A stretch of DNA of 64,000 nucleotides from Muricoccus harenae (GTDB lineage: Bacteria > Pseudomonadota > Alphaproteobacteria > Acetobacterales > Acetobacteraceae): assembly GCF_009848505.1 (NCBI RefSeq), contig NZ_WWDL01000003.1:124001-188000 (forward strand), read 5' to 3'. Shown one piece after another: positions 14,594-23,817 of the stretch. The translations under genes were made by a program, and so were the position numbers. The first letter of the stretch is position 1; each line of letters opens with the position of its first letter. Below the pieces are notes generated by a model, which had not been told where the DNA came from, did no database searches, and worked only from the letters and a program-made list of their open reading frames with translations.

Positions 14594-14944
14594 ATGAACA
14601 TCATCGCATTCGACGCCGCCGCAACGCTCAGCCGCGGGCTGGGCAAGAGCCTGAGCATCACCGTCCTCGCCGCCAGCCTGATTGGCGCGGCGGCCAGCCC
14701 CTCCCTTGCCGAGGGCGATTACGTGGCGGGCCCCACCGCCTCGCCGTCCTGGACGCAGGCTGCGTCCCGCACGCCGCTCGCAAGCGTCGCGCCCATCCGG
14801 ATGCACCGGCTGGCGGGCGGCGATGACCAGTATGTCGTCGGGCCTACCGCCTTCGAGGCTTGGCCGCAGGCCGAGGGCCGCACGCCCCTCGCTGCCCCTG
14901 GCATGAACAAGGGGCATTTCGACTTGGCGAGCCAGGGCGGCTGA
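14594..14944 (+). CDS. Small secreted GRTPLA-repeat protein, divergent paralog
   Basis: 116 aa, function unknown. An N-terminal signal peptide (hydrophobic ITVLAASLIGAAASPSLA, cleavage before EGDY) is followed by two copies of one motif: EGDYVAGPTASPSW...SRTPLA and DDQYVVGPTAFEAW...GRTPLA, then a tail GHFDLASQGG. The same two-repeat plan occurs in the proteins encoded at 23108 and 23539. The ATG at 14594 is chosen because it gives the signal peptide; the open frame starts earlier, inside the upstream region. It is longer than its paralogs, with an extended leader before the hydrophobic core. A terminator follows. Confidence 0.75.
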   Translation: MNIIAFDAAATLSRGLGKSLSITVLAASLIGAAASPSLAEGDYVAGPTASPSWTQAASRTPLASVAPIRMHRLAGGDDQYVVGPTAFEAWPQAEGRTPLAAPGMNKGHFDLASQGG

Positions 14945-14957
14945 CATCATCCATAGG

Positions 14958-14990
14958 CCCGGCCCCTGGGAAGGGGTCGGGTCTTCGCTT
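14958..14990 (+). terminator. Rho-independent terminator after the small secreted protein gene
   Basis: A 10-pair stem (14958-14967 with 14972-14981, one G-T pair) closes a GGGA loop and is followed by TCTTCGCTT. It lies 13 bases after the stop codon and may also serve the converging endonuclease V gene. Confidence 0.8.
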
Positions 14991-15005
14991 ATCCAGAACC
15001 CGCGC

Positions 15006-15713
15006 TCAGAGCAGCCCCGCCCCCTCGCCGGCGGCACGGCGCGCCTCCCCCGCCAGCCTATCCGCCAGCCTGGTCGGCTCCGGCAGACGATAGCCGGCGA
15101 GCCAATCCATCACATGCCGAACCGCCGTCTCCAGCGAGATGCGGTGGCCGGTGGAGACGAAGAGCGGTTGCACGCGGCGCTTGCTGCGGAGGACTGTGGC
15201 GATCTGCCGCCCTTTCCAGACCAGCGGCGCCTGACTGCCCGCTTCCTCCCCCAACTCGCCTTCCACCCGGCCGACAAGGATGGATTTGGCGACCCCGATG
15301 GTGGACAGGTCCAGAACCACGCCGAGATGGGTGGCGATGCCGCAGCCGCGTGGATGGCTGGTGCCGTGGCCGTCCACAAAGATCAGTTCCGGCCGCCGCG
15401 GCAGCTTCGCCACGGCGCCGAGCACGAAGGGGATTTCGCGGAAGCCGAGAAAGCCGGGAATATAGGGGAAGGCGGGGGTGCCCTCCTCCAGGCCGGTTGC
15501 CATCGGCCGGGAGCGGGCCTCGGTGCCGAGCAGCACGGCCATGGCCCGCACCCGGTCCGGCGCACCACGCGCGGCGCCGGCGCAGTCCACCCCGGCGACG
15601 AGGCGGGGCTGGGCAGGCAGGCGGTCGGCGCTTTCGGCACGGGCTGCGATGGCGTGCTGGGCATCCCGCGCCGCCTCCAGGTCTGCGGGGTGGATCCAGT
15701 CCTTTGGCGTCAT
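15006..15713 (-). CDS. nfi: Endonuclease V (deoxyinosine 3'-endonuclease)
   Basis: Cuts DNA one base 3' of deaminated bases such as inosine. 235 aa. The three metal-binding acids are present: Asp43 in LVAGVDCAG, Glu93 in GFLGFREIP and Asp114 in [13 protein letters not shown]; the PYIPG loop (about 84-88) that probes the lesion is also present. Length fits the family (220-240). It converges on the 14.6 kb gene and is divergent from ligA, 59 bases apart. A DNA repair role next to recN and ligA is sensible but the genes are not one operon. Confidence 0.93.
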
Positions 15714-15772
15714 GCCGGAACAACGCGGGGAGCCGCGTTCCGTGGCAGGGCCGCGCCTGCTATCTCCAACCC

Positions 15773-23047: not shown

Positions 23048-23057
23048 CAGGCGTCGC

Positions 23058-23090
23058 ACCCGGCCGCCCTGGGGGCGGCCGGGTTCGCGT
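23058..23090. terminator. Terminator between converging lysR-type and small secreted protein genes
   Basis: A perfect 11-pair stem joins 23058-23068 and 23074-23084 around a CTGGG loop, followed by TTCGCGT. It lies between two converging genes and could act for both. Confidence 0.7.
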
Positions 23091-23107
23091 CGGGCAGGCG
23101 TGAGGGT

Positions 23108-23395
23108 TCAGCTGCCCTGGGAGGTGAAGTCGAACGCGCCGATGACGCCGGCCAGCGGCGTGCGGCCGGAGGCGGAGGGCGAGGCGGTGGGGCCTGCAAC
23201 ATACTGGTCGTCACCACCGGCATACCGGTTCTGCACCGCGAAGTAGGAGCCGGCGAGCGGGGTGCGGCCCTCGGACTGGCTCCAGGACTGCGAGGCGGTG
23301 GGGCCGGAGATGTAGTCGCCCTCGGCGAAGGAGGGGCCGGCGACGCCACCGACCAGGGCAGTGGCGAGGACGGCAATGGGGAGGATCTTGCGCAT
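23108..23395 (-). CDS. Small secreted GRTPLA-repeat protein, copy A
   Basis: 95 aa, function unknown. Signal peptide MRKILPIAVLATALVGGVAG with likely cleavage after PSFA. The mature protein has two copies of a Y[VI]xGPTAS...GRTPLAG unit: GDYISGPTASQSWSQSEG then GRTPLAG, and DDQYVAGPTASPSASGRTPL, ending GAFDFTSQGS. It is nearly identical to copy B at 23539 outside a variable stretch between the repeats. The ATG at 23395 is supported by AAGGAA about 10 bases before it. No metal or catalytic motif was recognised. Confidence 0.8.
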   Translation of the reverse strand: MRKILPIAVLATALVGGVAGPSFAEGDYISGPTASQSWSQSEGRTPLAGSYFAVQNRYAGGDDQYVAGPTASPSASGRTPLAGVIGAFDFTSQGS

Positions 23396-23538
23396 GGCGG
23401 GGGTTCCTTCTCTGTCTGGGTGGTGCGGCTCGGTGCCGCAGTGATGGATAGGACGAGGCGGGGATGGCCGGCTGTTCCCCCCGGCACACCGCGTCACGCT
23501 CTCATCGGTGGAGGCGGCGATGCGCGAGGGACGGGGCC

Positions 23539-23817
23539 TCAGCTGCTCTGGGAGGTGAAGTCGAACTCGCCGATGACGCCGGCCAGCGGCGTGCGGCCGG
23601 AGGCGGAGGGCGAGGCGGTGGGGCCTGCGACATACTGGTCGTCACCACCGGCATAGGGGTGCTGCGTGGCAAGGGCGCCGGCGAGCGGGGTGCGGCCCTC
23701 GGACTGGCTCCAGGACTGCGAGGCGGTGGGGCCGGAGACGTAGTCGCCCTCGGCGAAGGACGGGGCGGCGCCGGCGATCAGGGTGGTGACCAGGGCGGCA
23801 GCGAAGATCTTGCGCAT
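23539..23817 (-). CDS. Small secreted GRTPLA-repeat protein, copy B
   Basis: 92 aa, function unknown, tandem paralog of the protein encoded at 23108 on the same strand, 143 bases apart. Signal peptide MRKIFAAALVTTLIAGAAPS with cleavage near SFA/EGDY. The two repeats read GDYVSGPTASQSWSQSEG plus GRTPLAG and DDQYVAGPTASPSASGRTPL, ending GEFDFTSQSS. The linker (ALATQHPYAG) differs from copy A (SYFAVQNRYAG). The near-identity of DNA over the repeats indicates recent duplication or gene conversion. Confidence 0.8.
   Translation of the reverse strand: MRKIFAAALVTTLIAGAAPSFAEGDYVSGPTASQSWSQSEGRTPLAGALATQHPYAGGDDQYVAGPTASPSASGRTPLAGVIGEFDFTSQSS

Follow-up and report, generated by a model that had tools for sequence, protein, structure and literature searches.

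A 64,000-nucleotide stretch of the Muricoccus harenae genome (contig NZ_WWDL01000003.1, positions 124,001 to 188,000 of the forward strand; hereafter the window) encodes three small, putatively secreted proteins built on the same twice-repeated motif, one at 14.6 kb (copy 1) and a pair at 23 kb (copies 2 and 3). This locus raises the question of what kind of family these proteins represent and how their genes are deployed. An earlier note on this DNA, made from the sequence alone, had drawn attention to the repeats, but the most informative feature, absent from that note, is the pairing of each subfamily with a regulator gene and a promoter box. We think it reasonably probable that these proteins belong to a family of exported disordered peptides that would be deployed by dedicated regulators and multiplied by the copying of self-contained genes.

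The three open frames read as the earlier note described them, with a common signal peptide, two modules and an FD[FL]xSQ tail (Table 1). In all three copies, the signal peptide ends in S[FL]A, the module GDYVxGPTAS...RTPLA is present twice and the C-terminal tail is FD[FL][AT]SQ. The GRTPLA ending attributed to the module does not hold for the first module of copy 1, which ends in SRTPLA, and the second module is shortened in both 23 kb copies (GPTASPSASGRTPLA), without the W-x-Q of the first. In the alignment, identity to copy 2 is 80% for copy 3 and 60% for copy 1, with 49 positions invariant across the three. The duplication relating copies 2 and 3 covers 313 aligned bases (88% identity), beginning at the stop codon and reaching a short way upstream of the start codon. 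The proposal that this pair reflects gene conversion or recent duplication is supported by the synonymous differences, which amount to about 1 in 37 sites in the modules and 10.5 in 33 in the signal peptide and linker (Fisher p 0.0009–0.002). Syntenic relatives in two other species support the view that copy 1, which had been called older, represents a separate line.

The view that these small, Cys-free and, by prediction, exported proteins form a real family was borne out by the homologs found, as was the view that no named family is recognisable: profile and sequence searches of five libraries (Pfam, NCBIfam, PHROG, PADLOC and PDB) yielded no convincing match over the module. The best E values for the window proteins were 0.12 with Pfam, 0.17 with NCBIfam, 0.1 with PHROGs and 0.22 with PDB (copy 3 searched), and the lowest for any of them was 0.0059, for copy 1 only, against PglX in PADLOC (13 bits). 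Scans with 27 members gave best values of 0.014 (Pfam) and 0.015 (NCBIfam), each for a single member, and the profile built from them reached 0.044 against PDB. Carriage by plasmids or phages was dropped, as copy 3 had no match in plasmid and phage records, and we found no account of the family in the open-access literature searched.

Among 15 genomes of the genus (G000, the window's own, to G014), 11 were matched by the 27-member profile, with up to 11 matches per genome; up to 150 candidates per genome were scored, and a two-module gene can count as two matches. G003, G004, G011 and G013 had no members at an E value of 1e-3. The same profile matched 19 of 397 genomes of the taxonomic family (up to 12 candidates scored per genome), 11 of which were those same genomes of the genus. 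Only one of the eight matched among the 382 genomes outside the genus, G239, has a clear member (E value 2.8e-13, frame read), the other seven matches, judged from the profile, covering only the first 30–45 of the 70 model positions (5.7e-6 to 7.9e-4). Copy 3 had no match in 24 more distant genomes of the class, whereas seven loci were retrieved from named genomes, four in Roseomonas rosea DSM 14916 and the others in R. aerilata DSM 19363, Pararoseomonas baculiformis SSH11 and Roseomonas sp. SXEYE001. The family is therefore multi-copy, unnamed and nearly genus-specific, with named relatives in Roseomonas and Pararoseomonas, and is not distributed across the taxonomic family.

We collected 47 member frames, including degenerate ones, from 40 regions and the window. 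Only about 10 of them have two modules (by eye) and most others have one, so the tandem repeat does not define the family; with this, the earlier interpretation stands in part, whereas the observation on which it was based is confirmed. There are two main tail types, FD[FLM]xxQ[GS] and LxxSGATGGxGQHS. A cleavage-like site, recognised by pattern rather than with a signal-peptide program, ends in Ala before [ED] in 45 of the 47 frames, 43 of which have A or S at position -3. Cut at this Ala, the putative mature chains have 30–79 residues, a grand average of hydropathy (GRAVY) of -1.08 to -0.33, and a composition dominated by A (15.9%), G (15.0%), S (10.4%), T (8.3%) and Q (7.4%), with Cys in just one. 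AlphaFold2 (nine sequences, shallow alignment) gave a predicted local distance difference test (pLDDT) value of 51 and no secondary structure, and the mature chain is accordingly predicted to be unstructured. The structural or surface role put forward in the earlier note is conjectural and finds no predicted fold to draw on. In 14 chosen pairs, the pooled ratio of non-synonymous to synonymous differences (pN/pS) was lowest in the tail (0.28), followed by the module (0.40), the signal peptide (0.64) and the linker (1.06). Omega was below 1 in 19 of 20 chosen pairs (0.21–0.88), the twentieth having a synonymous divergence (dS) of 0 and three non-synonymous changes. These values show that the module and the tail are under purifying selection, whereas the linker is neutral and free to vary. 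In L084 (G000, contig C54) and L088 (G007, C60), a weaker second relative (MFE[IL]FTLGALAS...), with neither the RTPLA part nor the usual tail, lies in tandem behind a member.

This pattern of selection bears on two other explanations. The frames might simply ride, untranslated, on a repeated DNA element, given that upstream DNA and hairpins recur across the genome; but codon-level selection is found mainly in the module and tail, the neutral linkers change in length in frame, and the signal peptide and ribosome-binding site are kept, making this explanation extremely improbable. Alternatively, the proteins might be generic hydrophilins, disordered exported chains rich in A, G, S, T and Q that protect against drying or osmotic stress with no specific partner. 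They resemble such proteins in being small and having no predicted fold; the mature composition, the GRAVY values, the glycine content of about 15% and the predicted disorder are in keeping with the hydrophilic, glycine-rich and disordered character of hydrophilins, and the gene for LysR-A, one of the regulators considered below, adjoins an alpha-amylase or trehalose-synthase-like gene (by eye) in G006 (L144) and G012 (L166). A generic protectant would, however, need its composition only, whereas here the sequence of an approximately 25-residue module and of the C-terminal tail (Y, W, GPTA and RTPLA) is kept and the linker alone drifts. We therefore consider this alternative unlikely.

The first of the presumed dedicated regulators goes with the members that have a GATGG tail, hereafter class A. 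LysR-A, a LysR-type protein (Pfam HTH_1 and LysR_substrate), was found beside a divergent member in G006, and searches with this query at an E value of 1e-40 retrieved it from 10 of the 15 genomes, exactly those with class A members. At this threshold, it was missing from the four family-less genomes (G003, G004, G011 and G013) and from G005, which has only a two-module gene (Fisher 3e-4, phylogeny ignored). We count in favour of this pairing that the ChvI protein of G005 is 97% identical to that of G002, the figure for the four family-less genomes being 90–93%. A GATG-tail gene is divergent from LysR-A at 7 of 11 loci, and, with a loose pattern, a box-like sequence is found no more than 61 nt from the LysR-A start at eight of the 11, two others having one at 213 or 379 nt only. 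In G012 (L166), the box persists in the LysR-A gap although the peptide gene is gone.

Alignment of 22 class A upstream regions revealed a common layout: ATCCAY-N3-RTGGAT, seven bases, ATCC, TTGGAG, mostly 18 bases, CATAT, a GC hairpin, CCATCCAC, a ribosome-binding site and ATG. Nine of 19 other aligned upstream regions, including that of copy 3, carry CGGCATTGG and constitute class B; most of these nine have a box ATKCC-N5-GGMAT with the same spacing as in class A. Both boxes fit the LysR-type consensus T-N11-A. The best T-N11-A site lies 117–122 nt before the ATG in 19 of the 22 class A regions and 118–123 nt before it in seven of the nine class B regions; the remaining best sites (three class A, two class B) fall elsewhere. 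The centre of the box is 29 nt before the -35 element in 13 of 22 class A and seven of nine class B promoters, which would place it near -64/-65, a position deduced from the -35 element; in several of the remaining promoters, the script had chosen another hexamer or site.

With up to one mismatch, the class A pattern gave 20 rows in 11 genomes, corresponding to 19 distinct places in four genomes: 14 are upstream of members, a further one, at the end of a contig, has the same promoter, and four are elsewhere. The reversed pattern gave no match in the same 11 genomes. The pattern also revealed a divergent member (L144) outside the profile-search list. The palindrome alone occurred at 10 places in four class A genomes: eight coincide with members, one is in the gap next to LysR-A in G012 and one is inside an open frame. 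G003 had two occurrences, each within an open frame (by eye), and G013 had none. Hairpins similar to that of the copy 3 leader occur at about the same place in many members; the mean score was 15.6, versus 11.5 for shuffled sequences, and 15 of 47 members reached p ≤0.05 individually, so that the leader hairpin may be regarded as a suggestive feature. Stress-sigma promoters of the EcfG type (GGAAC-N15–18-GTT) were considered and dropped, this motif lying upstream of only two of the 47 members.

The other two candidate regulators are encoded in the window itself. LysR-B was found in 3 of the 15 genomes at 1e-60 (G000, G002 and G007) and is convergent with a member in all three, the member of G002 being cut by the contig end. 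Besides LysR-B, G007 has two LysR-A loci and members of both class A and class B. The tetratricopeptide repeat (TPR) protein encoded upstream of copy 1 has a TolB-like segment and a probable N-terminal helix-turn-helix (both by eye). At 1e-120, it was likewise found in three genomes (G000, G005 and G006), 149–401 nt upstream of a two-module member in each. More distant relatives in the same cluster occur in G002 (L101), as a divergent gene 421 nt upstream of the two-module member, and in G001 (L098), 3.6 kb from the member. In the gap before copy 1, the tandem pair GGAAAGTT-N2-GGAAAACT is kept in G005 and G006, unlike most of the gap, and the third GGAAAGTT is matched by a GGAAAACT in G006 but has no equivalent in G005. 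We therefore propose this repeat as an operator (Table 1).

Table 1. Features of the window considered in this work (positions counted from its first nucleotide).
Feature	Coordinates	Strand	Basis or remarks
TPR protein, 256 nt upstream of copy 1	12868..14337	+	Pfam TPR models; ANAPC3 below its cut-off
Proposed copy 1 operator: GGAAAGTT-N2-GGAAAACT direct repeat and third GGAAAGTT	14484..14523	+	Gap comparison with G005 and G006
Copy 1 (TPR-regulator subfamily): predicted secreted protein of 116 aa with two modules and the tail FDLASQGG	14594..14944	+	Syntenic relatives in G005 and G006
LysR-B, LysR-type regulator, convergent with copy 2	22136..23047	+	Pfam HTH_1 and LysR_substrate; start codon unsettled, frame open from 21188
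Inverted repeat in LysR-B/copy 2 gap; possible bidirectional terminator	23059..23083	.	By eye
Copy 2 (tandem duplicate of copy 3): predicted secreted protein of 95 aa with two modules and the tail FDFTSQGS	23108..23395	-	
Copy 3 (leading gene of a probable copy 3-copy 2 unit): predicted secreted protein of 92 aa with two modules and the tail FDFTSQSS	23539..23817	-	
GC hairpin in copy 3 5' leader (GCGGC-AGCCC-GCCGC)	23842..23856	-	p 0.22 for copy 3 alone; similar hairpins in many members
Proposed copy 3 promoter: -35 TTGGCC (23894-23899), 18-nt spacer, -10 CAGGTT (23870-23875)	23870..23899	-	Alignment; spacing shared with relatives
Proposed LysR-B box of copy 3, ATGCC-N5-GGAAT (T-N11-A)	23921..23935	-	Centre 29 nt upstream of -35

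These observations are consistent with the following model. Each gene would encode a small Sec-exported precursor, from which removal of the signal peptide would release a flexible hydrophilic mature chain of about 40–80 residues, in which one or two conserved modules (about 25 residues each) are combined with a linker that is free to vary and a tail conserved at the C terminus. Three subfamilies would each be switched on by a regulator of their own, encoded beside one member: LysR-A would act on the SGATGGxGQHS-tail type (class A), LysR-B on the 23 kb pair and its relatives (class B), and the TPR regulator on the 14.6 kb copy. The LysR types would bind the T-N11-A box near -64 and activate the -35/-10 promoter. 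The genes would have been copied around the genome together with their promoter, leader hairpin and probable terminator, such that one signal might raise the production of several copies. Outside the inner membrane, the module and the tail would probably each dock on a fixed partner, which may be an envelope component, a surface polymer or another member.

Several points weigh against this model. The linkage of regulators to subfamilies is established in terms of joint presence and adjacency; expression, binding, direction of control and localisation are all predicted. The 15 related genomes represent few independent events, physical linkage by itself yields co-occurrence, and the shared boxes could reflect promoters copied along with the genes. 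Boxes with up to one mismatch were present in 11 of 22 class A upstream regions, versus 0.1% of shuffled ones, and in seven of nine class B regions, versus 1.2%, but these figures are descriptive only, because the boxes were defined on the same, related sequences. The strict class A pattern had no match in G000, G002 and G007 despite their class A members, whose boxes are variants or poor. The class B pattern was less clean: it matched 10 places in eight genomes, eight of them at members, with four matches for the reversed control. No box of its own was seen for copy 2. LysR-A has no adjoining member in G000, G002, G008 and G012, no box was found near it in G000 and G008, and the LysR-A of the window's own genome is only 62% identical to the query. 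Finally, the member from outside the genus (G239) has a GATGG tail, the search for LysR-A having covered the 15 genomes of the genus.

A further point concerns the chvI-chvG locus, in which a member lies between the two genes in 6 of the 15 genomes (L123 in G002, L124 in G008, L125 in G007, L127 in G006, L128 in G012 and L130 in G014). Judging from this arrangement, expression of the chvG kinase may be coupled to the promoter of the inserted member. In L131 (G001) and L132 (G010), the gap contains a two-haem cytochrome c-like frame (by eye) and no member, and in other genomes it is shorter or there is none; from its sequence, the junction looks like an insertion hot spot. In Caulobacter, the envelope is guarded by ChvGI (PMC9731502); in S. 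meliloti and Agrobacterium, ExoR acts as a repressor of ChvG (PMC9731437). On the basis of the chvI-chvG linkage, ChvI was our first choice as common regulator; the members would then be envelope-stress proteins belonging to the ChvG-ChvI regulon, produced while ChvI is active, acting in the periplasm and possibly serving as ChvG feedback ligands in place of the ExoR of Rhizobiales. The likeness to the ChvG-ChvI (ExoS-ChvI) system with its periplasmic ExoR is one of gene position, a small exported protein being encoded within the locus, and the kinase there has the Sensor_TM1 and Stimulus_sens_1 domains, which we count in favour of this rival.

ChvI was nevertheless demoted, because the box is LysR-like and the distribution of LysR-A matched that of class A. 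ChvI is present in all 15 genomes, including the four family-less ones, and the family in 11, so that the family does not simply follow the presence of this regulator, the measure that we had chosen, and nine genomes had no member seen between chvI and chvG. Inspection by eye of the 220 nt upstream of chvI did not reveal the class A box. This box is a LysR-like palindrome, and the conserved member boxes in general differ from the published ChvI sites, which are given in PMC9731502 as TTGC-N3-GCAA (Caulobacter) and GCC-N8-GCC (S. meliloti), although no systematic scan for those sites was made. ChvGI control is the strongest rival for part of the family, and may apply to the copies between chvI and chvG, which counts against the LysR-based model; weakened by the type of box and by the occurrence of chvI in family-less genomes, it is quite unlikely as an explanation of the family as a whole.

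The neighbours of the members were also clustered, taking genes identified by a rough rule based on GC content at third codon positions (GC3) within 4.5 kb and retaining clusters touching at least three members. Besides the TPR, chvI and chvG clusters, those recurring were TctC-type binding proteins (eight members), short-chain dehydrogenases (five), LysE-type exporters (four) and smaller clusters (all named by eye). The recurrence of these types presumably reflects the commonness of such genes. These clusters bear on the idea that the proteins are precursors of secreted signalling peptides, released by cleavage and then perceived by the population that makes them. This idea would fit the small size and predicted export of the precursors, the numerous paralogs whose ends are conserved and the presence of a regulator beside a copy in each subfamily, but no peptidase or receptor family recurred beside at least three members, and the LysE-type exporter frames within 4.5 kb of four members were never adjacent. 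At 40–80 residues, the mature chains would be long compared with pheromones, and the usual ligands of LysR proteins are small metabolites; we count both against signalling, which we judge very unlikely. A broader possibility, doubtful but deserving of mention, is a modular system of exported docking peptides, in which a single scaffold would have become linked, time and again, to sensors unrelated to one another (two LysR lines, the TPR regulator and the chvI-chvG insertion), with different signals deploying variants of the same surface or extracellular peptide, possibly as a genus-private code for communication or envelope remodelling.

Several further copies are present in the window's own genome. 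A search of G000 with copy 3 gave 11 matches at E values up to 10, which, by frame reading, comprise the three window genes, one two-module gene, three single-module genes, one that looks frame-shifted, one that is decayed and two taken as chance. The fourth two-module gene is a copy of copy 2 on contig C55 (L083, G000:C55:23000-35000, locus bases 5995–6551), where window positions 22953–23508 are duplicated with 97% identity over 557 aligned bases. Duplication of the whole LysR-B locus was ruled out, as just 95 bp of the LysR-B 3' end is included. In L086 (G000:C41, about 61950–62130), the start and the remainder of a single-module copy lie in different frames, and a decayed copy is found at G000:C41:204250-204339 (L009).

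A LysR regulator encoded beside its target is a classical arrangement, and the present loci resemble it in that the regulator adjoins its presumed target, a T-N11-A box occupies the activation position and, at most LysR-A loci, the box lies in the divergent intergenic region. They differ in that the presumed targets are dispersed paralogs of one tiny exported protein, whereas the classical target is an enzyme or transporter operon. We regard as new the combination of this arrangement with a tiny exported scaffold whose dispersed paralogs are linked to at least three regulators. Annotation has a large blind spot for small exported proteins that lack relatives, and the regulator-linked branches described here render one mysterious group of exported peptides testable: as the candidate regulators are few and encoded beside members, the timing, destination and role of the peptides should be accessible through perturbation of a single LysR gene. 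If this is right, the family would be a clear-cut natural example in which several unrelated sensors have each recruited the same secreted scaffold.

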